From Candidatus Zixiibacteriota bacterium (lineage in GTDB: Bacteria > Zixibacteria > MSB-5A5 > JAABVY01): a DNA stretch of 44,253 nucleotides. The notes below the pieces were generated by a model that did not search any database, was not told the DNA's origin, and worked only from the letters and a program-made list of their open reading frames with translations. The stretch is taken from NCBI GenBank assembly GCA_014728145.1, contig WJMC01000087.1, forward strand, positions 1-44,253. Reading direction: 5' to 3'. Numbering within the stretch: the stretch's first letter is position 1; each line of letters starts with the position of its first letter. A program made the translations under genes and the position numbers. This document shows, one piece after another, positions 1-23,035 of the stretch.

Positions 1-12
1 ACTGGAGGAATG

Positions 13-942: not shown

Positions 943-983
943 CGATTATAATGAAATAAAGATATATTTAGATACAAGGTTGA

Positions 984-3697: not shown

Positions 3698-3700
3698 TCG

Positions 3701-7100: not shown

Positions 7101-7323
7101 ACAGGTAGGACAGATTGCGACTCGCAAAAAGAGCGCTCTGTCGCGATATGGTTTGACGGTTCTCGATCTCGAAGATGAAGAACTCGAAAATATACAATCA
7201 GGTAGGCAGACAGCAGAAGTATCAGAAGAAATAAAAATCGATGACCAGACTATTGATGATATATTTTTCAGGCTGAAGCGAATCCTGGAAACCGAGAGCG
7301 AACGGATGGGAGGTGAGCGCTGA
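4150..7323 (+). CDS. Large low-complexity protein of the injection system; possible tape measure
   Basis: I do not recognise the family. The protein has 1057 residues. A helical, charged N-terminal part runs to about residue 200, followed by a very basic patch near 215-250 (KKRWSKRRIR, RRIRRIAV). A long Ser/Ala/Gly/Pro-rich centre then runs from about 260 to 1000, with short recurring phrases (IPQIGS at two sites, MTESA at two sites), and an acidic helical tail ends in DDIFFRLKRILETESERM. No signal peptide, HExxH metallopeptidase motif or toxin motif is visible. It lies between the tube and the LysM tube-hub gene, overlapping both by one base. No other gene in the operon could be the tape-measure protein, so that is the leading guess. 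A baseplate-linked scaffold or a packaged cargo protein are alternatives. Confidence 0.6.
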   Translation: MDRHWIEKLRQLKVKVQRHLMEKNAFESRPARASLEDLRMGQKLREQETALKSYLAQMTEFASGIPADRFEFDLESKFNVIQFEHGKLYLGPEALITSEPYLNFDPQIYFGREDQNIEKSRKSESATISTKSKSDLYHTIIEKYNPGQFLDPDKLKLKKLDSFVRDYGHEFAQTRMSRIEDQVKSIIDRYISPAGQTEELPSLFIYEGQFIYLTRKKRWSKRRIRTITQVDYFEGKRYALPRRIRRIAVAPEHELEAEMAAELITEEMAEPIRSVDSDKLLGYFIPTRRLGSKQASERISADTKTQISGQQTGSLEQVPYEVPGSREFALKIQTETASAGAAPEELGPEMITHQQRQQSRALALARRIKHHLQQPEKSPSQKAVLSLLPQLEKISTRSEPEREELPSAVDFEGRFEETVLSRARMFMTSQKAEEFSTTQPIVSPDEVASTARSLRSFTTDLITRHLPVYASLEADEMETISLKPFKTGTQALLDIGTSDKPVSDPVSLAKEVFASIKKSLKQGKARVKKADAETSKSRKAGSAEGISGRLPAIGRMRTFMNANVAKMMRTTLPEYAHKIVAQIGRKLDLGSFEPIFKADLPKLAVSEARGAMKLFTRKLGRERGFEATELPVEMDNLTDTVIPDRPDPVQLRQIRSLREGAEQVLEIRREVRRPSATSLASGLSQGRSRLAGSAMALAGRAAEMTESAGMPAIPQIGSFTPDLELFDRSPVQSGIDMLNFVTPPGQSMSLPAGAPQADSEVPQLIPGAPSALESTAGRSKGFLPSLVKKGTSAFKGAGESLRSGSQKIKSLTGFGSIAGGASMMSSVQQGVSSMIPQIGSMTESAKDQIGGLISSGRSALQRMPLGAGSKALEMASSGQIPSKTGLPDKLSALRGIATPSLPEPTVKLAGDIEKPKVPELLTSLIKRTATGRESMALTPSKIKKPADSVIPAVDRQADLPRGWDRPPFEVGTAIGKHLKQDLPSQVGQIATRKKSALSRYGLTVLDLEDEELENIQSGRQTAEVSEEIKIDDQTIDDIFFRLKRILETESERMGGER

Positions 7324-7943
7324 TGTCTCTTGAAAAGGCTACTATTACCAATGTCGACACAAATGATACATTCCAGGTTCTCTTCAATCCGAGCGAATAT
7401 CAACTCAAAAAGGAAACCCCCTGGGCCGAGCAGCGAGTTTTGGGGCTCGATGCTCCGGCGGCGTCATTTACGACCGGTATGCGCATGGAGCTGTCGATGG
7501 AGCTTTTTTTCGATACCAGCGAAGAAAAGAGCGATGTCAGGACTCATACTGAAAAGATCGAGAAACTTCTGATGGTCGACCCGGATAAGCATCGCCCGCC
7601 TTTGACATTGTTTACCTGGGGAAATTTTCAGTTCAAGGGTGTTTTTGAAAAGCTCAAGCAGAGATATACAATGTTCGTCCAGGATGGTACTCCCGTACGG
7701 GCGGTCCTGGATGTGACTATTAAAGAGTACACGACGACTTTTGAGCAGTTACAGAGACAACCGAGGCAATCAGCTGATCGTGCCAAGCACAGGATTGTCA
7801 GGCGTGGAGATACTCTCAGCCTGATTGCTCACAGGGAATACAACGATGCCTCCGAGTGGCGTCGAATTGCGGAATACAATCAGATTGAGGATCCGCTCGA
7901 TCTCGAACCGGGACTCGAGTTGACGATTCCTCCAATCGAATAG
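7323..7943 (+). CDS. LysM-containing tube-hub protein (Afp7-like)
   Basis: This is a baseplate-proximal protein of contractile injection systems that links the tube to the spike hub. Residues 1-140 match the CIS tube N-terminal domain, including the diagnostic FQVLFNPSEYQLKKETPW near the start and the LTLFTWGNFQFKGVFEKLKQRY segment. Residues about 156-206 are a LysM domain (HRIVRRGDTLSLIAHREY, then WRRIAEYNQI, ending PGLELTIPPI). In T4 gp53 and in Afp7 the LysM fold mediates baseplate assembly rather than sugar binding, so its presence alone does not prove contact with peptidoglycan. The start overlaps the preceding stop as TGATG. Length and order match Afp7 immediately before the spike. Confidence 0.93.
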   Translation: MSLEKATITNVDTNDTFQVLFNPSEYQLKKETPWAEQRVLGLDAPAASFTTGMRMELSMELFFDTSEEKSDVRTHTEKIEKLLMVDPDKHRPPLTLFTWGNFQFKGVFEKLKQRYTMFVQDGTPVRAVLDVTIKEYTTTFEQLQRQPRQSADRAKHRIVRRGDTLSLIAHREYNDASEWRRIAEYNQIEDPLDLEPGLELTIPPIE

Positions 7944-7956
7944 GAGACAGGCTGAT

Positions 7957-8625
7957 ATGCCTTTACGAAGAGCTTTAAGCGGTGGTTCCAACAGTGAAAG
8001 TGATCAGACTCAGCGGTACTATGGTGTCGTGATCGGGGTCGTTTCCAACATCGATGATCCGGAAAACACCGGCCGTGTAAAGGTCCGTTTTCCGTGGCTG
8101 TCATCCGATGAGGAAAGCCATTGGGCCCGGGTCTGCCAGTTTATGACCGGCAACGATCGCGGGAGCTGGTTTATCCCTGAAGTCAACGATGAAGTCCTGG
8201 TGGCATTCGAGCATGGTGATGTGAACCATCCCTATGTCGTCGGGTCGCTCTACAACGGCCAGGATCAGCCACCTTCGGAGAACAGTCACAGCTCCGAGAA
8301 CAATATCCGCATGATCAAGTCTCGTAGCGGTCATATTATCAAGATCGATGACACTTCGGGATCAGAGCAGGTCGAGATCAAGACCTCCTCCGGGAAAAGC
8401 GTGCTGACCATGAAATCCGATGGTTCGATCACGATAAAATCTGACAATATTACGATTGAAGGCACGATGAAAATCGACCTGAAATCGCAGAATATAAATA
8501 TAGAAGCTAGTCAACAGCTTAAACTGAAAGGCACCTCGGGTTTTGCCGTGGAATCGACAGGAACAGGAAAAGTCGAGGCCTCCGGTCCCCTGACTGTCAA
8601 GGGAGCTGTTGTCAATATAAATTGA
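7957..8625 (+). CDS. Spike protein, gpV/gp5-like OB-fold plus beta-helix
   Basis: This is the central spike that sits below the tube and is driven through the target membrane. Residues about 20-100 form the gp5/VgrG OB domain (YYGVVIGVVSNIDDPENTGR, VKVRFPWLSS, FIPEVNDEVLVAFEHGD and YVVGSLYNGQDQPP). Residues about 120-222 are repeating beta-helix strands (GHIIKIDD, VEIKTSSGKSVLTM, GSITIKSDNITIEG, and so on). At 222 residues it has no N-terminal gp27-like hub domain, unlike Afp8 or VgrG, so it is closer in size to P2 gpV. No separate hub gene is evident in the window. RBS AGGAGACAGG lies upstream, and the PAAR tip gene follows 15 bases later. Confidence 0.93.
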   Translation: MPLRRALSGGSNSESDQTQRYYGVVIGVVSNIDDPENTGRVKVRFPWLSSDEESHWARVCQFMTGNDRGSWFIPEVNDEVLVAFEHGDVNHPYVVGSLYNGQDQPPSENSHSSENNIRMIKSRSGHIIKIDDTSGSEQVEIKTSSGKSVLTMKSDGSITIKSDNITIEGTMKIDLKSQNINIEASQQLKLKGTSGFAVESTGTGKVEASGPLTVKGAVVNIN

Positions 8626-8640
8626 GGAGAGGTTTCTTCT

Positions 8641-9036
8641 ATGGGAATGCCTGCAGCTAAGCAGGGTGATAAGATCACGGCGGTAGACATTCATATAATC
8701 CTGATACCGGCCGCGGCAGGTGTGCCGGTCCCGACGCCGTTGCCTCATCCGTTTATGGGCATTATCGATTCGAGTTGTTCGACGGATGTCAAGATTATGG
8801 GAATGCCGGCGGCGGTAATGGGTTCCGAGGCGACAAATACGCCCCCGCATATCCCGCAGGGCGGGCCGTTCCAGAAACCTCCGACCAACAGGGGCAAGAT
8901 AGTCATGGGTTCCCCGACCGTAATGATCAACGGTAAACCGGCCGCACGCATGGGTGATACGGCGATGACCTGCAACGATCCGGTCGATCTGCCAATCGGA
9001 CAGGTGATAGCGGCGGGAACTGTAATGATAGGATAG
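8641..9036 (+). CDS. PAAR-domain spike tip protein
   Basis: This caps the spike as a sharp metal-binding cone (Afp10-like). The 131-residue protein shows the PAAR features: GMPAAKQGD at the N-terminus, a VKIMGMPAAVMGS repeat near residue 51, then IVMGSPTVMINGKPAARMGD near residue 88 and a closing IAAGTVMIG. His and Cys residues (DIHII, HPF, SSCS, TPPHIPQGG, MTCN) are available for a zinc or iron site. It contains only the PAAR domain and no C-terminal toxin extension, so effectors, if any, are delivered by another route. GAGGAGAGG gives a strong ribosome binding site, and the gp25-like gene starts 8 bases downstream. Confidence 0.92.
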   Translation: MGMPAAKQGDKITAVDIHIILIPAAAGVPVPTPLPHPFMGIIDSSCSTDVKIMGMPAAVMGSEATNTPPHIPQGGPFQKPPTNRGKIVMGSPTVMINGKPAARMGDTAMTCNDPVDLPIGQVIAAGTVMIG

Positions 9037-9044
9037 GAGTTGTA

Positions 9045-9446
9045 ATGCCTCGTAAAAATTTCCTGGGTGTGGGATTTAAATTTCCGGTCGATGTCGACCG
9101 TCGTGGCGGTGTGGCGATGTCGCGCTATGAGGAATCGATCGAGGACGCAATCGTTTTGATTGTCGGCACCGCTTTTGGCGAGCGGCAGATGCGCCCTGAT
9201 TTCGGATGCGGTATCCATGATCTTGTCTTTGCTCCCAACAACGCCAACACCCGTGCCCTGGCGGTTTACCATGTCGAGGAAGCCCTGATAAAGTGGGAAC
9301 CCCGCATTGTCGAGGTCAAGGTGACCGCCGATACCGATCCCGAGCAACCGCATATAATCAATATAGCGATAGATTATAAAGTTCGTACAACCAACAATGT
9401 TTTTAATCTCGTGTATCCGTTCTACCTGCAAAAAAGTGAGGTCTGA
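9045..9446 (+). CDS. Baseplate wedge protein, gp25-like (Afp9)
   Basis: This protein initiates sheath assembly on the baseplate. It is a 133-residue member of the GPW/gp25 family. FGERQMRPDFGCGIHDLVF, near residues 47-65, and the WEPRI segment carrying the invariant EPR motif (E85, P86, R87) are diagnostic, as is the closing YKVRTTNNVFNLVYPFYL. In T4, T6SS (TssE) and PVC this EPR loop holds the sheath-baseplate contact. The start has an AGGAG ribosome binding site. The stop overlaps the start of the next baseplate gene as TGATG, so the two wedge proteins are probably made in a fixed ratio. Confidence 0.95.
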   Translation: MPRKNFLGVGFKFPVDVDRRGGVAMSRYEESIEDAIVLIVGTAFGERQMRPDFGCGIHDLVFAPNNANTRALAVYHVEEALIKWEPRIVEVKVTADTDPEQPHIINIAIDYKVRTTNNVFNLVYPFYLQKSEV

Positions 9447-12400
9447 TGCCAATAACTCCCCCAAATCTGGATGACAGGACCCATGCCGATATTATGGAGG
9501 AATTGCGTCGGCTGATTCCGCGTTATTGCCCGGAATGGACCGATCACAATCCTTCAGACCCGGGCATTACTCTTCTGGAACTGTTCGCCTGGTTGACCGA
9601 GATGAAAATCTACAAGCTCAACCGGATTACCGATAAGACCTATGTGGCACTTCTCGATTTGATCGGGATGTCGCTTCTGTTACCGCAACCGGCTCAATCG
9701 TACCTGACCTTTACACCCGGACAAGGGCTCGAAGAGAGTGTCGTGGTTCCAGCCGGTACCCAGATTGCCACCAGCCAGACCGAGGTGACCGACAGCGTGG
9801 TCTTCGAAACGGCCGAGGATCTGAGGCTGTCACCTGTAGATCTGGCCAGGGTTGTTACCACAGCCGGTGATTCGGTTTCCGACAACAGCAGTTTTATAAA
9901 TAACCCATCGCCGGACGGCTTTCCTGTGTTCGGGGGAGTATCACAGATCGAGAGAGCGGTCTTTGTGGGCGATGATAAATTTTCTGCGTTAACGGAATCG
10001 GCCAGCCTGTTTCTGCGTTTCAAAGGAGCCTCGGAGGAGGCGCGCGCGCTTTTAACGATGCTCGACTGGGAATATTTCAACGGCAAACGCTTCAAAGAAC
10101 TGAACACGAGATTGGTATACACCGAGACATTGGGTGAAAATGAGACCCTGATTGAAATCGCTGGTCCACTTGGCGACCTCGAAAAAACCGAAATCGACGG
10201 TGTTGAGACTTTCTGGTTTAAGGCTACACTGACCGCTATACCGTCGAGCGAGCAAATTACGGAACTGGACACGATCGCGGTCGAGGCCCGAATTGTCGAG
10301 GATGGTCCGACTCCTGAAGCCGGCTTCTCCAATATCGCAGGTTCGATCTTCCTGCCTTTGGATTTCTCTAAAAGCGTTTACCCATTCTCGGAAGAACCCA
10401 AGTACGATTTTGCTTTCTATATCTCCTCACCGGATATCTTCTCCAAGACCGAGGCGGAGGTGATCCTGGATATCGACCTGGCCGACCCCTCGGTTGTCGA
10501 AGCGCCGGTGGCATCTTCCGACCTTGAACTTCTCTGGGAATATTACAACGGTCGAAAATGGGTCGAGTTGGGTGCAACTTCGCCCACCGGGGTCAGCCGT
10601 CCGGCAGGAAAGTTCAACTTTACAGATTCGACACTTGCTTTCACACATTCGGGCGAGATCAAATTCGATCGTCCCGAGGATTTCAGCCCCACCAAGGTCA
10701 ACGGCCAGGAAGGTCACTGGATTCGGTGCAGGCTGATTAAAGGCAATTACGGTCAGGCTGGTCATTACGAACAGGTCGGTAAAAACTGGGTCTGGAAAGA
10801 TGATAACCCGCTCAGGCCACCCTGCATAAAGATGTTGACATTGCGTTACAACCAGAAGCCGGTGTTTGTTTCCAACCTGAAGTCCTATGCGGATTTCACA
10901 TATCGCGATTTCTCCGGGCTTATCAAAAAGGAATACAACCCATTTCAATTATTTGAAGAGCAGAGGGATCGTTCGCCCAGTCTCTATCTGGCATTTAAGT
11001 CGATCGCTGAAAAGGACAGTTACGGCATCTGCTTCATTGTCAAGGAAGACCAGCGGCTGCCTGTCGATGAGCTGACCACGCGTTATTTCGGGGATATTTT
11101 CGGAACTGAAAACCGGCAGGAACAGAAGTTGTGGTGGGAATACTATAACGGCAAGGACTGGGCAGACCTGATGCCGATCGATACTACCGAGAATTTTAAG
11201 TGTAGCGGACAGGTCAAATTCGATTTTCCGCGCGATTTCAAGCCGGTTGAAAAGTTCGGGCAGAAAAACTACTGGATTCGGTGTCGCTTTCAGGATGGCG
11301 GTTACGCTGTTGCGCCGATGCTCAAGGCGGTCCTGACTAATAGCGTAATGGGGCTCAACCAGTCCACGATAAGCGGGGAAATTTTGGGATCCTCAGACGG
11401 CACACCTGATCAGACTTATAAGTTTTCCAACCCTCCCGTTTTGGAGGGGCAGGAGATATGGGTTAGAGAAAACACTCCTCCTTCAAAAAAAGAAGAAGAA
11501 CAGATTAAGGCCGAAGAAGGTGACGACGCTATCGATACAGTCACTGACAATGCCGGCAATCCTTCCAAAATCTGGGTGAGGTGGCATGAGGTCGACAATT
11601 TCTATAACTCCGACGGCAGTGCGCGCCATTATATCCTCAATCATATCGAGGGCAAAATCAGATTTGGGGATGGTCGCAAGGGCATGAGACCCCCTTCGGG
11701 AACGAATTCGATCGTGGCCCGCCGCTATGCGACCGGCGGTGGTGAGCAGGGCAATGTCGGCAGTAAAAGCCTGACCATCCTTCGTCGGGCAAATCCAAAT
11801 ATAGCCTCGGTTATAAATTTCTTCCCGGCCAGTGGCGGGTCTGATCTGGAGACGGTCTCGGATGCCAAACAGCGCGCGCCACAGATTTTCCGCAACCGTT
11901 TCCGGGCGGTCACCCGCGAGGACTACGAATGGCTGGCTCAGAGAGCTTCGTCGCATATAGCACGTACGCATTGTATTGCCAACACACCAGCGGAGGGCGA
12001 GGTTACATTGATCGTAATCCCGAAGGAGACTCCCGAACAGCGTGCCCGGGCGGATAAGATCACACCTTCGACACAGCTTTTGAACCTGGTGCGCGATTAT
12101 CTCGAACCGCGTCGTCTGTTGACAACCAGGCTCCATGTCGAGCGACCATCGTATTTGGAGGTCTCTTTTGAAATCCGTTACCAGGTAACCGCCACCGGTG
12201 CTGATCCCGAGCGGATCAAACGCGATCTTGAGCAGAATATCCGGCGTTACCTGCATCCGCTCTATGGAGGCAATGACGGCCGGGGATGGTCGTTCGGAAA
12301 AGCCTTGGTCAAGACCGATCTTTATAGAATTGTGGAAGATACCGAGGGCGTCGAATATGTCGACCGCCTTGAAATATATGATGAACAACGTAAACTGTTT

Positions 12401-12481
12401 ATAGACAAAATGAGGGCTCTGCCTAATCAGCTTTTCTATGTTGTCGATGTGAACAGCTTCCAGGTCAGAAGAGAGTATTGA
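9446..12481 (+). CDS. Large baseplate protein, Afp11-like (gpJ/gp6 family)
   Basis: This is the main structural component of the baseplate ring. The first 80 residues (NLDDRTHADIMEELRRLIPR, then EWTDHNPSDPGITLLELFAW) are the signature of the Afp11/TIGR02243-type putative baseplate proteins. The C-terminal third (about 740-1011) has the gpJ/gp6-like segment: ILNHIEGKIRFGDGRKGMRP, TREDYEWLAQRAS and LLTTRLHVERPSYLEV. Between these lie three copies of a beta module opening with W-E-Y-[YF]-N-G near residues 206, 363 and 563; copies 2 and 3 both end in W-I-R-C-R. At 1011 residues it is within the range of long family members. It starts by TGATG coupling to the gp25-like gene and ends overlapping the next start. 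Confidence 0.93.
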   Translation: MPITPPNLDDRTHADIMEELRRLIPRYCPEWTDHNPSDPGITLLELFAWLTEMKIYKLNRITDKTYVALLDLIGMSLLLPQPAQSYLTFTPGQGLEESVVVPAGTQIATSQTEVTDSVVFETAEDLRLSPVDLARVVTTAGDSVSDNSSFINNPSPDGFPVFGGVSQIERAVFVGDDKFSALTESASLFLRFKGASEEARALLTMLDWEYFNGKRFKELNTRLVYTETLGENETLIEIAGPLGDLEKTEIDGVETFWFKATLTAIPSSEQITELDTIAVEARIVEDGPTPEAGFSNIAGSIFLPLDFSKSVYPFSEEPKYDFAFYISSPDIFSKTEAEVILDIDLADPSVVEAPVASSDLELLWEYYNGRKWVELGATSPTGVSRPAGKFNFTDSTLAFTHSGEIKFDRPEDFSPTKVNGQEGHWIRCRLIKGNYGQAGHYEQVGKNWVWKDDNPLRPPCIKMLTLRYNQKPVFVSNLKSYADFTYRDFSGLIKKEYNPFQLFEEQRDRSPSLYLAFKSIAEKDSYGICFIVKEDQRLPVDELTTRYFGDIFGTENRQEQKLWWEYYNGKDWADLMPIDTTENFKCSGQVKFDFPRDFKPVEKFGQKNYWIRCRFQDGGYAVAPMLKAVLTNSVMGLNQSTISGEILGSSDGTPDQTYKFSNPPVLEGQEIWVRENTPPSKKEEEQIKAEEGDDAIDTVTDNAGNPSKIWVRWHEVDNFYNSDGSARHYILNHIEGKIRFGDGRKGMRPPSGTNSIVARRYATGGGEQGNVGSKSLTILRRANPNIASVINFFPASGGSDLETVSDAKQRAPQIFRNRFRAVTREDYEWLAQRASSHIARTHCIANTPAEGEVTLIVIPKETPEQRARADKITPSTQLLNLVRDYLEPRRLLTTRLHVERPSYLEVSFEIRYQVTATGADPERIKRDLEQNIRRYLHPLYGGNDGRGWSFGKALVKTDLYRIVEDTEGVEYVDRLEIYDEQRKLFIDKMRALPNQLFYVVDVNSFQVRREY

Positions 12482-13377
12482 TGGTTACCGGACAGGCGAC
12501 AGCGTCAAAGAAGATGCCGAAACTAATCGGGCATGATCTCGAAAAAGCAGAGAAGATCTGCGCGCTGGAACAGATACCGATCCGTTCGATTGAATTCGAG
12601 GAACACCCGGCACGCGAAGGTACGGTCATGCACCAGAATCCCCGGCCGGGTGAGGATGTGCCTGATGGTGGTATTCGTATCGTGGCCGCGTCGAAGAGCT
12701 ACCTGAATTATCTGCCCAATATCTATCGCATGTATGATGTCCGGCAGGGGAATTTCCTGAAACGCTTTCTGTGGCTTTTCAAGCATCCCGATCTGCCGAT
12801 TGATCGGATTCTGAACCGGATTCACACTTATTTCGAGCCCTACAACACTCCCTCTGAATTTCTACCATGGCTGGCATCGATACTGGCACTACCTCTCGAT
12901 GAGAGCTGGGATGAGGCCAAGAAGCGCGAATTGATCGCCAATATCGTGAAGATCTATAAACTGCGCGGTACTCCCCGTGGATTGTCGCTGTACCTCAAAA
13001 TTTACACCAACAGTGAACCGGAGATTATAGAGAATTACTGGCCCTTTAACGGTTTCCAGGTAGGAGTAGCTTCCACGGTCGGGGTCGATTCGATCATCAT
13101 CGGCTATATCGAGAAAGCGCATTGCTTCACAGTGAGGATCCCGCGTACCGTCGACGAGACCCCGCTGGAGATGATCCGCCGGATTCATGCCATAGTGCAG
13201 GCCGAGAAACCGGCTCATACGAACTATTACATGATCTTTGCCGAACCTGAGGTCGAAGAAGCCGACTTTATGCAGGTCGGAGTGGCTTCCATGATAGGTG
13301 TGGAATCATGGGTCGGAGAAACTGATAACAATCTTGATGAAATACAGGAAGGTGAACGAGATGACCGAGGAGAATAA
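12481..13377 (+). CDS. Afp12-like baseplate protein with N-terminal PASTA domain
   Basis: This is a phage tail protein I (P2 gpI/TIGR02242) homologue that should pair with the Afp11-like protein in the baseplate wedge. The tail domain covers about residues 78-260: YLPNIYRMYD, LPIDRILNRIHTYFEPYNTP, LPWLASILALPLDESW and YKLRGTPRGLSLYLKIYT. Fused in front is a PASTA domain at about residues 11-72 (MPKLIGHDLEKAEKICALEQ, then GTVMHQNPRPGEDVPDGG). PASTA modules usually bind peptidoglycan or muropeptides, or act as spacers. I am not aware of them as standard Afp12 parts. A short motif, QVGVAS-x(2)-GV-[DE]-S, occurs near residue 194 and again near 264. The upstream TTG at 12478 is passed over in favour of ATG 12481, which overlaps the previous stop. 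Confidence 0.88.
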   Translation: MVTGQATASKKMPKLIGHDLEKAEKICALEQIPIRSIEFEEHPAREGTVMHQNPRPGEDVPDGGIRIVAASKSYLNYLPNIYRMYDVRQGNFLKRFLWLFKHPDLPIDRILNRIHTYFEPYNTPSEFLPWLASILALPLDESWDEAKKRELIANIVKIYKLRGTPRGLSLYLKIYTNSEPEIIENYWPFNGFQVGVASTVGVDSIIIGYIEKAHCFTVRIPRTVDETPLEMIRRIHAIVQAEKPAHTNYYMIFAEPEVEEADFMQVGVASMIGVESWVGETDNNLDEIQEGERDDRGE

Positions 13378-14902
13378 GGAATTTAAGCGTGTATCCTTTT
13401 TCCGGGGCTTCTTCGCTTCGGAGGACGATTTCAATCACCTGGTTGACTACGACCTGGAGAAACACAGGCTCCACAACCGGTTGCATCATTCACCGGGGGT
13501 GATGTTGAACTTCTCCGGCGAACTGCGGGTGATCGCTCGTGAGAAAGGCGATTTCTCGATCGAGATCGCACCCGGTTACGCAATCGATGGGTTGGGTAAT
13601 GATATCTTCCTGTGGGAGACTAAGGTTCTGGCGATAGATGTTTCAAAGTATCGCCTGCCTATCGTTGTTTACCTGGTGTTGAAATATTTTGATGAACCGG
13701 TCGATTTCATAACCAACAAGGCAAATCCACAATATAAGGGTCACAAACGTATCGCCGAACGTGCCAAGCTCGAGTTTTCAGCCACTCCACCGGAAATCAC
13801 GGAGGGTATCGAATTAGCACGGGTTCGTCTGGAGGAGGATCTCAAGGATGTCAAAAATCCTGCCGATCCCAGGGCCCCGCAGGCTGGTGAACTGGACTGC
13901 CGTTTCGCACCGATCGCCGGTTCGTTCGGTTGGTTTTTGTCACCCGAAATAAAGTCCCGGATTTTTACCGTGTATAACGACATGAAAGTCGTTTTCATGC
14001 AACTCAACAAGCTCTATGATTTGAAGTATTCGCTGGAAGCATACCAGGCCGCCCTGACTGCCGAAATGGTTTCGATCGGTGGTAAAATCGATTTCCGCAA
14101 CGCCTTCGAATTGATCAGGATAATTGTTGATATCGAAAAAGAAATCTCTGCCGAACTGGAGAATACTCCCAATCTCTCGCAACGCAAGGAGGTCGGCGAA
14201 TACAAGGATAATTTGCAGGCACTTTTGAACCTGACCTCGGCATCGGATATTACATCCGAGGACCTCAATAACCTGATTATCTATCAATCCAAGGCATCCA
14301 ATTCTCTAAAAAAGCTTCTGGCTCCGAAGGTGGCTGAAATACGATCGGAAATCGAGGGAGAACTGGAGGAATTCAAGGGCGAACGGTTGTCCATGGATGA
14401 GATCAAGATCTGGTCGAAGGAATTCCCTGAGGAGCTTATGGTCGATGAGGTGCGTTACAAGCTCGTCGATTGGATCGATATCCTAAATGATCAGTCAGAA
14501 AAAGATCACGAGTTCAAGCTGGGCGGGGTCAAAGAAGAGCTTCGCCAGAAACAGAACTTCTTCTTCCCCGATGGTACCCGGATGTCCGATCGGGGGCGAT
14601 TGCACTGGGAAGGATTTGCGCAGTTCAAGATCAAGAATCTTAAACCGGAGCTCGATATTCTTATGATCCGTCGGATCGACTATGCTTACGGCGGACTTAA
14701 AACTGATATCGAAGTCGATGGCGAGAAAGTCGGTGTCTGGGAAATCTCCGGTAATGACCGTAAGTATCGCTGGCGCAATATGCCGTACATAATAAATGGG
14801 AAATTCATTACCAAAGAGGAAGTGGTTGTAAAACAGACGGCTATCTCAGCGGAACGTGATGTCAATATGTTCGGTTACTGGTTTTACCAGGCGATCGTAT
14901 AA
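13361..14902 (+). CDS. Probable baseplate adaptor or fibre-related protein
   Basis: No name can be given with certainty. The N-terminal 90 residues (FFRGFFASEDDFNHLVDY, EKHRLHNRLHHSPGV, then IEIAPGYAIDGLGNDIFL) follow the pattern HNRxLHxxGV...PGYALDxxGNEI that I associate with poorly characterised proteins in eCIS and phage-like loci, at the position where fibres or adaptors attach. Residues about 205-365 look helical or coiled, and the last 100 residues are beta-rich. There is no signal peptide or transmembrane segment. ATG 13361 is chosen because AGGAAGGTG at 13346-13354 precedes it. This start overlaps the Afp12-like gene by 17 bases; a longer reading from 13298 would overlap it much more. 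The position after Afp12 corresponds to the fibre gene afp13. Confidence 0.7.
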   Translation: MTEENKEFKRVSFFRGFFASEDDFNHLVDYDLEKHRLHNRLHHSPGVMLNFSGELRVIAREKGDFSIEIAPGYAIDGLGNDIFLWETKVLAIDVSKYRLPIVVYLVLKYFDEPVDFITNKANPQYKGHKRIAERAKLEFSATPPEITEGIELARVRLEEDLKDVKNPADPRAPQAGELDCRFAPIAGSFGWFLSPEIKSRIFTVYNDMKVVFMQLNKLYDLKYSLEAYQAALTAEMVSIGGKIDFRNAFELIRIIVDIEKEISAELENTPNLSQRKEVGEYKDNLQALLNLTSASDITSEDLNNLIIYQSKASNSLKKLLAPKVAEIRSEIEGELEEFKGERLSMDEIKIWSKEFPEELMVDEVRYKLVDWIDILNDQSEKDHEFKLGGVKEELRQKQNFFFPDGTRMSDRGRLHWEGFAQFKIKNLKPELDILMIRRIDYAYGGLKTDIEVDGEKVGVWEISGNDRKYRWRNMPYIINGKFITKEEVVVKQTAISAERDVNMFGYWFYQAIV

Positions 14903-14922: not shown

Positions 14923-15384
14923 ATGAGACTAAATATTTTTGGAAAATTTTTTAGATTTGGACGAAAGGATGTTCCCAAAATGCCAAAGCGCGACAAGAAG
15001 AAATCTCAGGCTACGCGTGTTGTTGACGCGCGCGGCGCCGGACGAGGTAAGACCCGTGTGGTTGGTGTCGGCTCCACGGTGGAGGATCTGCCGGTTGTCG
15101 GCTGGCTGGTTATTATAAACGGTGAATTCAAGGGCCAGGATTATCGTCTCGATGATCGCAAGTACACGCTCGGCCCGACCGAAAACGAAGATATCGTCGT
15201 GCGTGACGATTATCTTTCTTCGCCCCATTGCGCCATCCGTTATGAAAACGGCAGTTTCTATATCAACGATCTCGGCTCTAAAAACAAGACCTATGTCAAC
15301 GGCGAGGTACAGACCGAGTGGGAACTGATCGACAATGACCATATCAAGATCGGCAAGACCGAGATGATCTTCAAATGTCTCTAA
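14923..15384 (+). CDS. Soluble FHA-domain protein
   Basis: This is a cytoplasmic phosphothreonine-reader protein of the injection-system operon. The FHA domain spans about residues 64-153: VIINGEFKGQDYRL, then the LSSPHCAIRYENGSFYINDL core and SKNKTYVNG. The usual Gly-Arg before the acidic loop is Gly-Pro here (YTLGPTENEDI), so the arginine that contacts the phosphate backbone is missing. The basic N-terminal tail carries two threonines in similar settings, ATRVVD (T31) and KTRVVG (T44), reminiscent of the phosphorylated tails of GarA/OdhI-type FHA proteins. An internal Met (MPKRDKKK) is an alternative start. It follows the adaptor gene by 20 bases. It is a likely kinase substrate and scaffold; in type VI secretion the analogous position is filled by Fha1. 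Confidence 0.85.
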   Translation: MRLNIFGKFFRFGRKDVPKMPKRDKKKSQATRVVDARGAGRGKTRVVGVGSTVEDLPVVGWLVIINGEFKGQDYRLDDRKYTLGPTENEDIVVRDDYLSSPHCAIRYENGSFYINDLGSKNKTYVNGEVQTEWELIDNDHIKIGKTEMIFKCL

Positions 15385-15398
15385 GCAGGAGGGGGGAT

Positions 15399-17618
15399 AT
15401 GCATAAAGACTTCAGGCCCGTTTGGATTCTGCTTTTCTTATTGTTATTTTGCGCGCAGGCTTCCGCGATTAAAGTAGAGACCCAGCCGCGCATCAAACTA
15501 CCTTCGGGTACCGGCGATACGGAGGTCTCCAATGTCAAGGCGATCTATGTCGGTCCCAAGGGAGAGATCTTTATCGGTTCGGCCCGCAACAACCGGGTCA
15601 AGGTCTATTCCTCCAACGGCCAGTACCTGCGCACCATCCCGTCCTCGGGCGACGATAATATCGACGTGCCCCAGGATATCGATATCGGCGTCGATGGCTC
15701 GATCTATGTCGTCGACCGTGACCGCGATGAGCTCAGTAAGTTCGATGAAAACGGTTTACGAATGGGTACTCTGGGCGGTGAAAAAGCATTTGATCGGCCG
15801 ATGTCGGTCTCGGTGGCGCGCGATGGCAGGGTGTATGTGGCCGATAAAGACAAGGAATCGGTACAGATATTCAATCCCTCCGGGCAGAAACTGGGAAGTC
15901 TGCAGGGAGCCGGTTTCGATGAGCCGATTGCGGTCGATGTAGACCACCAGGGCAGAGTCTTTGTGCTCGATAAAAAACGCAAGTCGGTACAGGTCTTCAA
16001 TTCTGACAATGAATTCCTCAAAGAAATCCGGATTGCCTACGCAGGTAAGGAAATCGACGAACCTGTCGATTTGTGTGTCAACCAGCATGGCGAGGTGCTG
16101 GTCCTCGACGAGGACGAGAAAGTGTTTTATTTTATGGCCGACTATGAGACCTCGGAATGGTCACGGCCGTATGGCGGAATGTTCGATAAGCCGATCTCAA
16201 TCGATGTTGTTGGAAGAGATATCGTCTATGTCCTCGACAACAAGGACGAGATAATTTGGAAATTTAAGCTCTCCGAATTGCCTTCTCTGGTCAAAGAAAA
16301 GACAGTCAAGGAATCGATAGTCAAGAAAGCTGTGATCTCGACCAACATCGATGCTGAAGCCAATGTCTATGTCAACCGTTTGCTTCCCGATGATGACATG
16401 GTTGTCCTGTCGGTATTTGAAAACAATCGCAATATCGCCACAGGTTTGATCGCTGAAAACTTTACAAGGGTGGAAGTCGATGGTGAAGCGCTCGATGTGA
16501 AATCAGCGGAGGCATTGTTCTCTTCCGGTGAGATCGATTTTATCTTCATTCTTGGAACCGCTGAGCTTCGTGCTAACGAGCTGAGTGAAGTACGTGAAAA
16601 AATCACGACGGAGTTTTTAAGCAAGCTGGATGAGTCCCGTCACCGCGTGGCGTTTTTTACCTGTGCCGGTGATGTTGAGATGGCCTTGCCGTTGGAAAAA
16701 TCTTTCTCAAAACAGAAATCAGCAGTAGAAAAGCTGGAGTTTGATGGCGATAAAGTGGTGCTCTATGATGGTATCTTGAGCGCATTATCGTACTACGATT
16801 CACTTCAAAGCGATACATATCCAATCTTCATAGTGTTCACTAACTCTGACGATAAATCCAGCCGCAACAGCTTTAATACACTCGAAAAGTACAAACGCTC
16901 GCATGGCCTTCCTCAGGTCTATACGCTGGTCTATGACGACAAAAAAGATCCTCAGATGCTTGAGGATCTCAAGAAGATCGCTGATTTTTCGGGCGGTTTC
17001 CTCTACTCTGCGGACAAGCGTGACATGATCTATTTTCTCTTCCGGCGGGCTGTCGCGCTCATCCGCGGTCAATACTGGCTGGCCTTAAACAACCTGCCCA
17101 CGGAGGGTGAACTCACTGTCGATGTCGATGTCGATCTGGATGGAAACGTCCTGACAGAAACTCATCCGTATTCTGAACCGAGTGGTGAAGAAGTTGATAT
17201 CAAGGGGAAATCGTTTTTTGAAAAATATGGCCTGATCCTTTTGATTATACTGCTGGTGATTATCCTGTTAATCATCATCATTATCATATTGAAGAAAGCT
17301 TCTGAGAAATCAAAGGCACCGATAGGCGAGGCACGGCTGGAAGTCAAGTCGGGCAGTGCATCCCAGAAAGAATACCGCCTGCGCAAAGGGGTTAATAAGA
17401 TCGGATCCGCAAACGACAACGATATCGTCCTTCAGGTAGAGGGAATCTCTGGCCATCATGCAATAATCGAGTTTGCCGGCGGTAAATATACGCTTGTCGA
17501 TTCCGATTCTACTAACGGGACCTATGTGAATCGTAATCGAATCGACCGGCGGATTTTGATCAACAATGATGTGATCAGTATTGCTTCTGTGGTTGATTTC
17601 GTGTTTAAAACCGGATAG
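15399..17618 (+). CDS. NHL beta-propeller / VWA-like / TM / FHA membrane protein
   Basis: This 739-residue single-pass membrane protein has an unusual domain chain. It has a signal peptide (WILLFLLLFCAQASA, cleavage near residue 23). Next come about six NHL-type propeller blades at residues 30-300, with repeats of the form DVDHQGRVFVLDKKRKSVQV. A Rossmann-like region at about 345-580 resembles a VWA domain but lacks a clear DxSxS site. A transmembrane helix (about 611-634, almost all Leu/Ile) precedes a C-terminal FHA domain at about 645-738. The propeller and VWA-like parts should face the periplasm and the FHA the cytoplasm. The FHA has IGSANDNDI in place of IGR, and SGHH at the Ser-x-x-His site. 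Start 15399 is set by AGGAGGGGGG at 15387-15396. It could transmit an envelope signal to the FHA/kinase network or anchor the machine. Confidence 0.85.
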   Translation: MHKDFRPVWILLFLLLFCAQASAIKVETQPRIKLPSGTGDTEVSNVKAIYVGPKGEIFIGSARNNRVKVYSSNGQYLRTIPSSGDDNIDVPQDIDIGVDGSIYVVDRDRDELSKFDENGLRMGTLGGEKAFDRPMSVSVARDGRVYVADKDKESVQIFNPSGQKLGSLQGAGFDEPIAVDVDHQGRVFVLDKKRKSVQVFNSDNEFLKEIRIAYAGKEIDEPVDLCVNQHGEVLVLDEDEKVFYFMADYETSEWSRPYGGMFDKPISIDVVGRDIVYVLDNKDEIIWKFKLSELPSLVKEKTVKESIVKKAVISTNIDAEANVYVNRLLPDDDMVVLSVFENNRNIATGLIAENFTRVEVDGEALDVKSAEALFSSGEIDFIFILGTAELRANELSEVREKITTEFLSKLDESRHRVAFFTCAGDVEMALPLEKSFSKQKSAVEKLEFDGDKVVLYDGILSALSYYDSLQSDTYPIFIVFTNSDDKSSRNSFNTLEKYKRSHGLPQVYTLVYDDKKDPQMLEDLKKIADFSGGFLYSADKRDMIYFLFRRAVALIRGQYWLALNNLPTEGELTVDVDVDLDGNVLTETHPYSEPSGEEVDIKGKSFFEKYGLILLIILLVIILLIIIIIILKKASEKSKAPIGEARLEVKSGSASQKEYRLRKGVNKIGSANDNDIVLQVEGISGHHAIIEFAGGKYTLVDSDSTNGTYVNRNRIDRRILINNDVISIASVVDFVFKTG

Positions 17619-17628
17619 GTGTGTGTAA

Positions 17629-19047
17629 TTGCAGATTATTGTCGAGTTCATCTCCGGTGAAAACGTCGGCAGTCGCAAGAGGTTTTCCGGAGATTCGGTG
17701 CTGGTGGGAAGATCGGGAAATTGCGATCTGGTGCTTGATTCCGATGTCGTCTCTTACCAGCACTGCCGTATAAATATCAAAGGTGACGGGCTGTTTTTGA
17801 CCGATCTGGGATCATCCAACGGCACTTATGTCAATGAATCTCCCCATGATAAGGGCTATATTGCCTTCGGTGACCTGGTTCGTTTCGGAGAAGGCGGTCC
17901 CGAGGTCAAGATTACCTATACCGATGAATCCGCGCAACCTGGCAAGCGTGCCAAAACCGAGATGGTTCAGCATGCTGACACAGTGCTTGTCCTGGAAGTC
18001 TCCGGGGATAAAACTTATCGTTATCCGCCCGGCAAGATAATTGTCGGAAGGGAAGTCGATTGCGACCTTCCCCTGGATCACCTGATGGTTTCCCGCGCTC
18101 ATGCCGAAATCAATTTCCGTCCGCCCGAGCTGACTGTCCGTGACCTCAACTCCACCAATGGTACTTTCATCAATGGTAAAAAGATTGACAGCGCGCGTCT
18201 TACTGCCGGCGATGAAATCGTCTTCGGAGATAATGGTCCCGAAGTAACAGTCGATTTTGGAGGTGACGGCGCGGTTAGTATTAAAAAGAGCGGTCGCAAA
18301 CTGGCTCTGGTCGCAGTCTTCGTGATTATCGCTTTGATAGTGGCAGGAGGATATTTTGCGCTTTACCGGCCCTACACGGAAAAGCAGGAGGTCGAGAAGA
18401 AATCTCTCAATGAATATGTCGCCTGGAGGCTGAAAGATCTTTCTGCCCAGATGGGCGATCCGCAGGACGAGATCCCCTTGATTTTTGTCGAAAGTGTAGC
18501 CGGTTATGTCGAAAAATTCACAGGCAATCTGCGCAACTGGTTTTCGCGCTCAATGGAACGTGCCCGGCCACAGCTCGGTATGGTCCGCAGGCTCCTGCGC
18601 GGTGCAGGTCTGCCAGAGCATTTCGCCTGGCTGGCGTTTGTCGAATCCGGTTATGATACGACGGTTACCTCCCATGCCGGCGCGCGTGGTTTGTGGCAGT
18701 TTATGCCCGCAACCGCGAGACAATTTGGTTTAAGAGTGGATGGGTCAGTCGATGAACGTATCTACCCTAAAAAATCGACACAAGCCGCTTGTAAATATAT
18801 TAAACAGTTGTATAATTTGTATAACTCGTATATGCTGGCTATGGCCTCGTACAATACCGGGGAAGGCAGGGTAGCCCGTGCATTGCGCAGAATCGATGTG
18901 ATCGGTGAAAATCGTTTCTGGTACCTGGTTAAAAGCGATATGCTTCACAACGAGACCATGGGGTATGTACCCAAGATCATGGCGGTGATGATTATCGCCA
19001 CTGATCCCGAGAGGTTCGGCTTCGAGAACGAGGATAGCGAACGATGA
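17629..19047 (+). CDS. Membrane-anchored FHA-FHA-lytic transglycosylase
   Basis: This is a fusion of two phosphothreonine readers to a peptidoglycan-cutting enzyme. FHA1 (about residues 1-100) has VGRSGNCDLVLDS and SYQHCRI; FHA2 (about 120-215) has VGREVDCDLPLDH and SRAHAEI. Both keep the Gly-Arg and Ser-x-x-His binding residues. A transmembrane helix at about 224-246 follows. The C-terminal SLT domain (about 310-465) has the catalytic Glu339 in FVESGYD, GARGLWQFMPATARQFG and MLAMASYNTGEGRV, as in MltD-type transglycosylases. The topology implied is FHAs in the cytoplasm and the enzyme in the periplasm. TTG 17629 is the only start that keeps FHA1 whole; AGGTGTG lies upstream. It overlaps the kinase gene by 4 bases. 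It could open the cell's own wall for the injection machine under phosphorylation control. Confidence 0.92.
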   Translation: MQIIVEFISGENVGSRKRFSGDSVLVGRSGNCDLVLDSDVVSYQHCRINIKGDGLFLTDLGSSNGTYVNESPHDKGYIAFGDLVRFGEGGPEVKITYTDESAQPGKRAKTEMVQHADTVLVLEVSGDKTYRYPPGKIIVGREVDCDLPLDHLMVSRAHAEINFRPPELTVRDLNSTNGTFINGKKIDSARLTAGDEIVFGDNGPEVTVDFGGDGAVSIKKSGRKLALVAVFVIIALIVAGGYFALYRPYTEKQEVEKKSLNEYVAWRLKDLSAQMGDPQDEIPLIFVESVAGYVEKFTGNLRNWFSRSMERARPQLGMVRRLLRGAGLPEHFAWLAFVESGYDTTVTSHAGARGLWQFMPATARQFGLRVDGSVDERIYPKKSTQAACKYIKQLYNLYNSYMLAMASYNTGEGRVARALRRIDVIGENRFWYLVKSDMLHNETMGYVPKIMAVMIIATDPERFGFENEDSER

Positions 19048-21704
19048 GCCTGCGCAAGATAATCGACAACCAGTACGAAATCCTGAGGCGGATAAAAACC
19101 GGCGGTTTCGGCACGATCTATTACGGCTGGGATATTACGCTCGATCGACCTGTGGCTATCAAGGAGGTAGCACAGTCGCTTTTGGGTGATAAGCAGTACA
19201 TGGATATGTTTGTCGATGAAGCGCTCAACACGGCCCGCTTGAACCATCCTAATATAGTCCAGATTTACAGCCTGCGCAGGACATCCGAGAACAACCTGTA
19301 TATTATCATGCAGTTCGTCGAGGGTATTGACCTGCGTGACCTGATCGAATACTTCATTGAACGTGATGGCCGGGTGCCGGAGAACCTGGCTGTGTTTATT
19401 ATTGGCGAGATCTGCAAGGCACTCGAGTACGCCCATAACCTCAAAGACCGCAGGACCGGTCAGTCCCTGAATATCGTGCACCGCGACATATCACCATCAA
19501 ATATAATGCTGTCAGTCGAGGGCGCCGTCAATTTGATTGATTTCGGGATTGCCAAAGCGCGTCATCGGGTGGCCCAGAAAACCCAGACCGGATTTGTCAA
19601 GGGCAAGGTGGCATATCTTTCGCCTGAGCAACTGGAGGGCAGGGATGCTACCCGCCAGAGCGATATCTTCTCTCTGGGTACGGTTTTTTATGAACTTTTG
19701 ACCGGATGCCAGGCGTTTGTGGGAGACTCCGATTTTTCGATCATGAAGAATATCATGTCAGGAAGGATCGATTTCAGCAGGTTAAATGATCAGGACCTCA
19801 CCCCTGATTTACGCGAGATCGTCAAGAAGTCATTAGCGCGTGACACCGCAGATCGTTATAAAACTGCAAACGAGATGTATGTCGATTTATATGAACTGAC
19901 CCGCAAGCATTATCCGGGTGAACCGATGTCCGACCTGTCAAGGCTCGTGCATGAAATTCATATCGGCGAGGACACTGTACCGGGAAGCGAACCCTCTCTT
20001 CCGCAGCCTGAGGACGAGAAGTCGGATCAGCAGAATATCAAGACACAGGTTCTCTCGGCCGGGGACAATCCGTTCGCCGAGATATCCGAGCCAGAGCAAA
20101 AACCAAAACCGGAACCAAAACCAAAACCGGAGCCTGAAGCTTCTGAGAGCGATCATCCCAAACAGAAGCCATCAGAAACACCTTCGCAACCCGGACCGGG
20201 CGAGGAAGCTAAAACACAGATTTTTAATTCCGAAGAGGCTCGCACAGTCGTTCACGACACCTCCAGCGCTGAAGCGCGCACAGTTATTCACGACACCTCA
20301 CAAGCAGGAGCCAGATCCGGCCGCGGAGGGTTTAATTTCAATTCGATTGCCGCCAATTTTAAACGTATCGACAGCCGGGTCTGGATATATGCGGGCGGAT
20401 CGCTGGGAGTCTTGATTTTAATCCTGATTTTAGCGCTGTTGCTTCGGGGGGGCGGTGAAAGCGGACCTGTGGGAGATTATCGTGTCTGGATCAACAGCGC
20501 GCCCGAAGGTGCCGAGGTCTATTTGAATGATGAACTCTATGGTAAGACACCGCTTCAACTGGTCGAACTCGAGGATGGCGAGTATGATCTGCGTCTTCTC
20601 CATCCGGAGGCAGATCCGATTGATACGCAATTTGTACTGACTGAAGGTTCAGAGGTGACTTTTCCAAATTTTGTCCTCACGAGAGAAGTCTATGTCAATT
20701 CGATTCCACAGGGGGCAGAAGTTTATGTCAATTCCAGAGAAACCGATCTGATCACTCCAGCGCTTGTCGATGTGCCGATTATGGACAGCGTTAACATCAG
20801 GCTCGAGCATGAAAACAGTAAATATCCGGTCAAGCTTGCCGGTTTTGAGATCGAAAGCGGTGAATTTCAGGCGGATGATGACTATATATGGGAAAAGCAG
20901 TTTAACGAAGATGATGAACGCTGGGAACTGACCGGGCGATTCTTAAAAGAGATCACGATTTCATCCAAACCACAGGGCGCGGATGTCTTGATAGATGGGC
21001 GCGAAACCCCGATTGGACAAACACCGGGCAAGATGATGATCCCGTTCGGATCGTCAAAACTGACCCTGGTAAAAGCAGGTTTTGAAACCAAGGTCAGAAC
21101 CGTCAACATCGCTTCGGATTTTAAGGGCTCATTGTTTTACGAGATGTTTCGCCAGGTAAAAATCAGCGCGGTTGATAAGAGTGATCCCGATGGTCCCGAT
21201 CTGAAAGCGACTGTCTACAAGATCGAAAGCGAAGGCAAGGTCTCACAGGTCAATGAGAAAACACCCTCTCAGATGCTTCTTTCCGGGGTCGAGCACAGGA
21301 TCTACCTGGCTAAAGACGGCTACCGTGATACGAGCCTGATTATCGGGGTCAACCAGAATGAGCTGGTGGCGAAGATGACTTCCAAAAGCGAAACTCAAGC
21401 GTCCGATCAACCAGTTGTCAGAAAACCAGAGGAAGATAAGGACAAGGCGCAATTACTGTTTATCTTTACCGATAGAAAAAGCAAGGAGCCCCTTGAAGGT
21501 GTCGATGTCGTGGCGGAAGAAAAGGATACTCGCGAACGGATTTTGCTGGGTAGTACTAATTCGGAGGGACGTCTCGAAGTCAGGCTGGCGGAAGGTAAAT
21601 ACAAGTTTATCGCCAACAAAGACGGCTACCGCGAATGGGATGATGGTGAAAAAATCAGTAAAGGGAAAAATTATAAATACAAAAAGAAGCTGAGAAGAGA
21701 TTAA
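19044..21704 (+). CDS. Transmembrane Ser/Thr protein kinase with PEGA repeats
   Basis: This is a Hanks-type kinase. The kinase domain at about residues 8-275 has the glycine loop TGGFGTIYYG, catalytic Lys40 (VAIKEV), HRDISPSN with Asp148, DFG at 166-168 and the activation-segment threonines in KTQTGFVKG. It is an RD kinase, the class usually activated by loop phosphorylation. A disordered Pro/Glu/Lys linker (about 310-440) holds four similar threonine sites, KTQVL (T334), KTQIF (T391), RTVVHD (T401) and RTVIHD (T413). A transmembrane helix at about 446-467 leads to three PEGA-type repeats (from about 479, 548 and 635) and a C-terminal carboxypeptidase-regulatory-like beta domain (about 802-880), all predicted periplasmic. 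It is the likely writer for the FHA proteins around it and is translationally coupled to both neighbours. Confidence 0.95.
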   Translation: MSLRKIIDNQYEILRRIKTGGFGTIYYGWDITLDRPVAIKEVAQSLLGDKQYMDMFVDEALNTARLNHPNIVQIYSLRRTSENNLYIIMQFVEGIDLRDLIEYFIERDGRVPENLAVFIIGEICKALEYAHNLKDRRTGQSLNIVHRDISPSNIMLSVEGAVNLIDFGIAKARHRVAQKTQTGFVKGKVAYLSPEQLEGRDATRQSDIFSLGTVFYELLTGCQAFVGDSDFSIMKNIMSGRIDFSRLNDQDLTPDLREIVKKSLARDTADRYKTANEMYVDLYELTRKHYPGEPMSDLSRLVHEIHIGEDTVPGSEPSLPQPEDEKSDQQNIKTQVLSAGDNPFAEISEPEQKPKPEPKPKPEPEASESDHPKQKPSETPSQPGPGEEAKTQIFNSEEARTVVHDTSSAEARTVIHDTSQAGARSGRGGFNFNSIAANFKRIDSRVWIYAGGSLGVLILILILALLLRGGGESGPVGDYRVWINSAPEGAEVYLNDELYGKTPLQLVELEDGEYDLRLLHPEADPIDTQFVLTEGSEVTFPNFVLTREVYVNSIPQGAEVYVNSRETDLITPALVDVPIMDSVNIRLEHENSKYPVKLAGFEIESGEFQADDDYIWEKQFNEDDERWELTGRFLKEITISSKPQGADVLIDGRETPIGQTPGKMMIPFGSSKLTLVKAGFETKVRTVNIASDFKGSLFYEMFRQVKISAVDKSDPDGPDLKATVYKIESEGKVSQVNEKTPSQMLLSGVEHRIYLAKDGYRDTSLIIGVNQNELVAKMTSKSETQASDQPVVRKPEEDKDKAQLLFIFTDRKSKEPLEGVDVVAEEKDTRERILLGSTNSEGRLEVRLAEGKYKFIANKDGYREWDDGEKISKGKNYKYKKKLRRD

Positions 21705-23035
21705 TGCCGAAGATAATTTTGCAAAAAGACGGCAGTATAGTCAACACTTTTGATTTTCCCGGTCGCGAGGAAATCAGTGTCGGGAGCTCATCCGGTTGTG
21801 ATGTCCCGATAGAAGATCCCGCTCTGGCATCGGAGCAGGCCAAAATAATATTGCGAAAGGATGGTTTCTACCTCCAGCTCGTGACCCATATACCAGCGGT
21901 CTTTGTGACTGGCGAAAGAGTCGAGGGGGAGGTTAAGCTCGAGGATGGCGATACGATCAATATCGAGGAATACGATCTGGTCCTCAATGTCCTTGATGAT
22001 GAGCTGGAGAAGATCGCTGACGCAGAACCCCGCCAGGAAAAACCGGTAGAAACAGAAGAACAAGAAAAGACGGAAGATTCCCAAAAGTCTGATGAAGAGA
22101 TTTCGATTGAAAAAGATGAATTGAAACCTGATAAGTTAGAAGAAAAACCGGCAGAAGATCAAGTTGAATCCTCAACTGAGAAAGTCCCTGAAACAGGACC
22201 TGAGGAAACAGCCGAAGTTAAACAGGATGAGGATGGGCCGGATGTCCCGGATGAGAAAGTACGGGTTGAGAAAACCGAGGAGTATCATACTCCGGAAGAG
22301 CCGGCGAAAAGCGAGGATGAGCCAGATAAAGTAGAAAAAGCGGTCGATAAAGCTATTGAAAAGGAAGAACCGCGCAAACCGACTCTTGAACCACGCAAAC
22401 CGACGATCGCTCCGCAAAAACAGGAACAGCCGATCGAGTCGGCAGAAAAAGTATCTGATGCGCCTGCTGAATCCGCTCACAAGACCAAGGTGCTGGATGC
22501 CGGGGATACCCCCGATGAGTCTGCTCATAAGAAACCTGAACCACAGCCTTTGAAACCTGATGAGGAAGATATGTGGCTGGTGGTGATCTCCGGACCATTA
22601 CAGGATCACAGGTTCAAGCTGATTAAGGGGCCTAACAGAATTGGCCGAGACCGCCAGAAAAATGATATAATCGTCCGCCTTGACCGCAAGGGTGAAGTTG
22701 ACACCTCGATCTCGCGAGAACACGCGGTTGTCGACTACACGGATGGAGTTTTCTACCTGAGCGATACAAAAAGCCAGATGCGTACTAAACTCAACGATCG
22801 TACGATCTCCACCGATGAGGTCCTTCCACTCAAGGAGGGCGACCTGATCGAGATATCCTCGGTGCGCGAGAGCACAGTATTCAAATTGGTGTCCGAGAAA
22901 AACATCGATGCTCCGGTAGCAAAGATAAAAATTGACGCGATTTCACCGGAGAAGTTACAGCGGTATCTGCCGTATATACTTGTCGGCGTGGGATTGCTGG
23001 TGATAATATTGATATTAATTTTGATTCTAAAGTGA
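21704..23035 (+). CDS. Tail-anchored double-FHA protein
   Basis: The N-terminal FHA-like fold (about residues 1-100) is degenerate: VGSSSGCDVPIED lacks the Arg, and ASEQAKI replaces Ser-x-x-His. A long acidic linker rich in Glu, Lys and Pro (about 105-285) includes AHKTKVLDAGD, with T261, nearly repeating a segment of the kinase linker (KTQVLSAGD). The second FHA, at about 288-400, is intact, with IGRDRQKNDIIV and SISREHAVV. The protein ends in a hydrophobic helix (LPYILVGVGLLVIILILILI) followed by one Lys, so it should be tail-anchored with everything else in the cytoplasm. TAATG links it to the kinase gene. It is probably a membrane scaffold that brings the kinase, the phosphatase and an FHA-bound partner together. 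Confidence 0.9.
   Translation: MPKIILQKDGSIVNTFDFPGREEISVGSSSGCDVPIEDPALASEQAKIILRKDGFYLQLVTHIPAVFVTGERVEGEVKLEDGDTINIEEYDLVLNVLDDELEKIADAEPRQEKPVETEEQEKTEDSQKSDEEISIEKDELKPDKLEEKPAEDQVESSTEKVPETGPEETAEVKQDEDGPDVPDEKVRVEKTEEYHTPEEPAKSEDEPDKVEKAVDKAIEKEEPRKPTLEPRKPTIAPQKQEQPIESAEKVSDAPAESAHKTKVLDAGDTPDESAHKKPEPQPLKPDEEDMWLVVISGPLQDHRFKLIKGPNRIGRDRQKNDIIVRLDRKGEVDTSISREHAVVDYTDGVFYLSDTKSQMRTKLNDRTISTDEVLPLKEGDLIEISSVRESTVFKLVSEKNIDAPVAKIKIDAISPEKLQRYLPYILVGVGLLVIILILILILK

Follow-up and report, generated by a model that had tools for sequence, protein, structure and literature searches.

Recurring [KR]Tx[VIM] threonine motifs in the linkers of a membrane Ser/Thr kinase and of neighbouring FHA proteins probably serve as phosphothreonine docking sites in a self-contained circuit of kinase, phosphatase, and FHA proteins, whose genes lie immediately 3' of a contractile injection system (CIS) gene cluster. 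The window, i.e., the whole stretch of 44,253 nucleotides analysed, is an entire contig of Candidatus Zixiibacteriota bacterium. Six genes of the proposed circuit follow directly 3' of the CIS genes, on one strand and in this order:

1949 to 14902, + strand: CIS genes, encoding sheath, gp19-type tube, CIS tube/LysM, injector OB protein, PAAR, gp25, baseplate J, tail I, and a conserved unknown protein (13358-14902)
14923 to 15384, + strand: FHA1, a soluble protein with a basic N-terminal tail and a single FHA domain (15163-15354)
15375 to 17618, + strand: NHL-FHA protein, with signal peptide, NHL repeats, a vWA-like region (labelled by sequence inspection, without a Pfam match), one TM segment, and a cytosolic FHA domain (17397-17582)
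17629 to 19047, + strand: FHA-FHA-TM-SLT protein (lytic transglycosylase)
19044 to 21704, + strand: Ser/Thr kinase with a cytosolic linker (residues 305-440), a TM segment (448-466), and PEGA domains
21704 to 23035, + strand: tail-anchored FHA protein, with a degenerate FHA domain, a putatively disordered linker, a canonical FHA domain, and a C-terminal TM segment
23043 to 24440, + strand: PP2C phosphatase with a TM segment

The catalytic core of the kinase is intact (Pkinase match of 148 bits; K40, D148, and D166 invariant), and the phosphatase gave a PP2C_2 match at E=4e-15, with invariant catalytic acidic residues (DGMGG, GDSR, SDGL, GGEDN). In a hydropathy scan, a TM segment follows the linker in the kinase, another separates the FHA pair from the SLT domain, and the tail-anchored protein has one at its C-terminus. 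From these positions the motif linkers should be cytosolic, on the same side of the membrane as the kinase domain.

The upstream genes comprise an extracellular CIS (eCIS) set (sheath, tube, gp25, baseplate J, spike, PAAR) within one cluster, where the sheath belongs to Phage_sheath_1 and the baseplate to TIGR02243. Models for the type VI secretion system (T6SS), with its TssB/TssC sheath, stayed below their cut-offs, save for a marginal TssF domain match in the baseplate J protein. As in eCIS of the Afp/PVC type, genes for sheath, gp19-type tube, CIS tube protein, gp25, baseplate J, and tail I are present; unlike in those systems, the SLT and TM-FHA proteins suggest a link to the cell envelope. 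No FHA/kinase module for an eCIS was found reported in the literature searched.

Eight threonines had been listed by the first-pass annotation, and every one was found at the residue given:

15010 to 15024, + strand: ATRVV (T31), FHA1 tail
15049 to 15063, + strand: KTRVV (T44), FHA1 tail
17953 to 17967, + strand: KTEMV (T110), disordered linker between the two FHA domains of the SLT protein
20040 to 20054, + strand: KTQVL (T334), kinase linker
20211 to 20225, + strand: KTQIF (T391), kinase linker, array unit 1
20241 to 20255, + strand: RTVVH (T401), kinase linker, array unit 2
20277 to 20291, + strand: RTVIH (T413), kinase linker, array unit 3
22481 to 22495, + strand: KTKVL (T261), linker of the tail-anchored FHA protein

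The [KR]Tx[VIM] pattern ascribed to all of them holds for seven, T31 (ATRVV) falling outside the strict [KR]T. Their common placement in disordered linkers was likewise borne out in part: in an AlphaFold2 model of the SLT protein's FHA pair (mean pLDDT 77), residues 100-116, including T110, fell below 50, the other sites being assigned to disorder from Pro/Glu/Lys-rich composition only. T31 and T44 lie N-terminal to the FHA domain of FHA1, whose own model (pLDDT 38) was too poor to use.

Seven strict motifs were observed in the four window linkers against 0.44 expected under per-linker shuffling (maximum of 5 in 20,000 shuffles; p<=5e-5), a post hoc value, as are all window p-values, the pattern having been derived from the same window. 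The kinase linker is the only individually strong one (4 motifs vs 0.075 expected, p=5e-5); taken singly, the SLT linker gave p=0.04, and those of the tail-anchored protein and FHA1 about 0.15, which is not significant. The pattern holds 7/25 (28%) of linker threonines and 11/566 (1.9%) of those in 29 other window ORFs (binomial p=4e-7). Folded domains contain the pattern too (T146 of FHA1, plus near-matches) and cannot be compared with the linker sites. The linkers of two orthologous operons provide a semi-independent test of the pattern, with 8 motifs against 0.35 expected in G001 and 8 against 0.43 in G002. A further candidate, KTQIS in the 4150-7323 protein, was dropped, as it was not seen in the corresponding proteins of the orthologues (the G001 copy is incomplete).

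Three of the kinase sites form an array, spaced by 10 and then 12 residues in the window (T391, T401, T413) and by exactly 12 residues over four units in the orthologues (T378/390/402/414 and T370/382/394/406). Aligning the repeated units is ambiguous; the motif counts per genome are independent of it. The units have diverged in DNA, with 15-26 of 36 positions identical, and their Thr codons vary synonymously (ACA/ACC/ACG), thus the motif is kept at the amino-acid level and does not reflect a recent DNA duplication. Other kinases of the same genome, read by eye, carried no such threonine array.

Conservation was compared in four genomes of one family, the kinase, SLT, and tail-anchored linkers being available in three of these (two genera): the window, G001, and G002. 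In G003 the contig ends after FHA1 and the NHL-FHA gene, and neither a kinase orthologue nor, in this and other CIS-bearing genomes, the tail-anchored FHA protein was found. FHA1 occurs in only 4/132 genomes of the phylum (E<=1e-20), a contig scan with the conserved baseplate protein returned nothing beyond the family's three other members, and scans of viral contigs with FHA1 and the kinase gave no match. Alignment of homologues, the check proposed at first pass, came out as anticipated for the three linkers: 6/6 motif threonines were invariant across the three genomes, against 1/16 non-motif threonines (Fisher p=9e-5) and 60/311 non-motif columns. The hydrophobic residues at +2/+3 were conserved as well as the threonine, which was never replaced by Ser, Ala or Val. 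By these alignments, the motif threonines are under constraint while the surrounding linkers change, and they thus mark probable switch points of the circuit. Both FHA1 threonines are invariant in the four genomes, as are 38/47 other columns of the tail, so they cannot be singled out and were excluded from the test. Elsewhere in the linkers, VEKTEEY of the window's tail-anchored protein (residues ~216-221) resembles MKTEEI of two relatives, yet does not align with it, and the PP2C linker holds another conserved threonine, T-[VI]-D, around residue 269 in 3/3 genomes, possibly a further regulatory site.

A complete phosphothreonine pocket, with canonical Arg and Ser as assigned by alignment to solved FHA structures, was present in only 3/6 FHA domains: both of the SLT protein (GR and SxxH; R28/S42 and R141/S155) and the C-terminal one of the tail-anchored protein (GR and SREH; R315/S337). 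The pocket Arg is replaced by Pro85 in FHA1 in 4/4 genomes, by Ser in the NHL-FHA protein (Ala in relatives), and by Ser in the N-terminal domain of the tail-anchored protein, where His and Asn are also lost. Three of the six domains being without Arg, the predicted competent readers are fewer than the first-pass annotation assumed. Loss of Arg alone need not end all binding, since in the Fha protein of Agrobacterium R30A or S46A singly lowers secretion, the double mutant abolishing both secretion and pTssL binding (PMC3953482).

Further support came from beyond the operon. In G029 and G015, an NHL-FHA plus FHA-FHA-SLT pair (~36% identity) is found with no CIS or kinase genes alongside, and the T110 column retains Thr (ATKIL, ATRIL); as no operon kinase was seen beside the gene, the constraint there need not stem from such a kinase. 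A distant Zixibacteria unit, in G012, keeps the SLT-then-PEGA-kinase order, the FHA-FHA and SLT parts lying on two contigs. Its PEGA protein (L038:755-3028) is homologous to the window kinase through the PEGA part (E=1e-31), has no kinase domain by Pfam, and appears to be a pseudokinase in which HRD and DFG are not recognisable. The linker of this protein, with 71 residues and six threonines, has zero motifs, a natural control that consists of one genome whose FHA-FHA linker differs too. The window genome encodes another FHA-linker-FHA protein (C213; L044:3578-4270), which belongs to the core of the phylum and is found in 54/58 relatives. Its linker contains DGTM[VIL]L, in which G-T-M is strict in 30/30 sequences (alignment A12) with hydrophobic residues at +2 and +3, and Thr108 and Thr113 are both kept in all 30; outside this block mean linker identity is 49%. 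The N-terminal FHA domain has Arg, Ser, and His in 30/30 sequences, the C-terminal one being degenerate.

One close comparison is the T6SS threonine phosphorylation pathway (PpkA, PppA, Fha, TssL pThr14), in which a membrane Ser/Thr kinase, a PP2C, and FHA proteins are encoded with a contractile machine and Fha binds TssL pThr14 through the pocket Arg and Ser, R30/S46 (PMC3953482). The window likewise contains a kinase with intact motifs by the machine, a PP2C, and an FHA reader with Arg and Ser. It differs in having a Phage_sheath_1 sheath and a TIGR02243 baseplate instead of TssB/TssC, a kinase with PEGA domains and a site array, and four FHA proteins, one with an SLT enzyme. The array also recalls PknB/FhaA of M. 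tuberculosis, where, according to PMC12077195, which cites Roumestand 2011, the phosphorylated juxtamembrane linker of the kinase docks an FHA protein; sensor domains and context are unrelated, and a repeated array of similar sites is particular to the window. Juxtamembrane phosphorylation is known from StkP and PrkC as well as PknB, the last of which binds FhaA when phosphorylated (PMC12077195).

GarA and OdhI (TTSVF type) and DgcB share with the window a disordered threonine, confirmed as such here for T110 alone, with hydrophobic +2/+3 residues by an FHA domain (PMC6733907). The FHA domain of DgcB binds the protein's own tail, K13-T14-S15-x-V17 (V17 at +3), and according to the authors the three tails have hydrophobic residues at -3, +2, and +3 in common (PMC6733907). 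The window motifs have the +2 and usually the +3 residue, and share with DgcB the Lys at -1. The window differs from these systems in the Pro at the FHA1 pocket and in the spread of sites over the kinase and its partners.

Cis switching of the GarA/OdhI kind, in which the linker threonine of each FHA protein, when phosphorylated, docks on the FHA domain of the same protein and shuts out partners, has precedent in GarA, OdhI, and DgcB (PMC6733907), and the layout offers candidates: T110 sits in a disordered linker with two complete pockets alongside, and T261 lies ~50 residues N-terminal to another. We consider it unlikely as a general account, given that FHA1, the protein nearest to GarA in layout, lacks the pocket Arg, and that the kinase has the most sites but no FHA domain, so that these must be read in trans. 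T110 was also left unplaced by AlphaFold2, a weak point since the model had no phosphate. For FHA1 itself, the GarA/OdhI self-binding analogy drawn at first pass was not supported, and such a self-switch is unlikely with Pro85 in place of the phosphothreonine-binding Arg in all four genomes.

The retention of three FHA domains without the canonical Arg, along with conservation of the +2/+3 hydrophobics as well as of Thr, would also suit short linear motifs that are bound phosphate-free by another partner, e.g., a degenerate FHA domain or the baseplate of the CIS. This is improbable, as no linker in the comparison, that of C213 included, shows Ser, Ala or Val in place of the Thr, and the genes alongside encode a kinase, a phosphatase, and three FHA domains whose phosphothreonine pockets are complete. 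Still harder to uphold is compositional chance in Lys/Glu/Pro-rich linkers combined with recent tandem duplication, which we regard as very improbable: two of the four window linkers do fall short of significance alone (p ~0.15), but composition-preserving shuffling gives 0.4 motifs against the 7-8 seen, the repeats differ at the DNA level yet retain the motif, and the threonines are invariant amid diverged columns.

Docking sites of a kinase/phosphatase/FHA circuit are thus the preferred reading. The idea that the motifs are the phosphosites wiring such a circuit is partly upheld in that they are constrained, predicted to be cytosolic, similar to known FHA-bound tails, and accompanied by an intact kinase and a PP2C; the part that relied on a GarA-type cis switch in FHA1 was not supported. 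In the circuit as we picture it, where phosphorylation and partner choice are what we infer from sequence, the membrane kinase would phosphorylate its own juxtamembrane linker at 4 to 5 sites, mostly in the 12-residue array, and also the linkers of the SLT and tail-anchored FHA proteins and the tail of FHA1. Binding of the marked sites, mostly in trans, would then fall to the three FHA domains with complete pockets and would build an inner-membrane complex, a peptidoglycan lytic enzyme included, which the PP2C would dissolve by erasing the marks. FHA1 is more likely a phosphorylated adaptor than a GarA-type self-switch, and perhaps links the CIS to the complex; that it bridges to the baseplate is conjecture, prompted by its gene position and pocket.

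The FHA1 gene follows the CIS baseplate gene in 4/4 genomes of the family, and from this gene order, together with the analogy to T6SS control, we infer that the circuit may serve or control the neighbouring CIS. A tentative extension, which we think somewhat doubtful, is that a phage-tail-type CIS is placed under reversible threonine phosphorylation, where the kinase array would gather the FHA-FHA-SLT peptidoglycan enzyme together with the tail-anchored FHA protein, the phosphorylated FHA1 tail would bring the baseplate to that membrane location, and loading and firing would take place at a controlled envelope site and not by cell lysis. Post-translational control of CIS is known mainly from T6SS. 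If the proposal is true, such control would reach another class, that of a phage-tail-like CIS equipped with a dedicated kinase and phosphatase, a peptidoglycan enzyme, and proteins that read phosphothreonine, and this would bear on how CIS engage with the envelope. The invariant linker threonines, both in the operon and in the core FHA protein of the phylum, are concrete and cheaply tested sites, and they suggest a rule for finding switches in uncultured bacteria, namely a conserved Thr-x-[VIM] in a linker by FHA domains.

Some features of the CIS genes themselves were also recorded. Upstream of the sheath, secreted paralogous proteins are encoded (window 10-1922; G000:C240, L118). A second sheath copy lies on another contig, C240, since the CIS cluster is interrupted by the end of the contig, and in G002 extra sheath and tube copies adjoin the cluster. 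Between the tube and CIS tube genes lies a protein of 1057 residues without a Pfam match (4150-7323), the middle part of which varies strongly in length and sequence between genomes. The tail I protein (12478-13377) has a PASTA-like N-terminal match at residues 12-64, unusual in a baseplate protein, with 23.1 bits against the Pfam cut-off of 23.2. The protein at 13358-14902, of 514 residues and with no Pfam/NCBIfam match, shows 85% identity between genera, above most other proteins compared.
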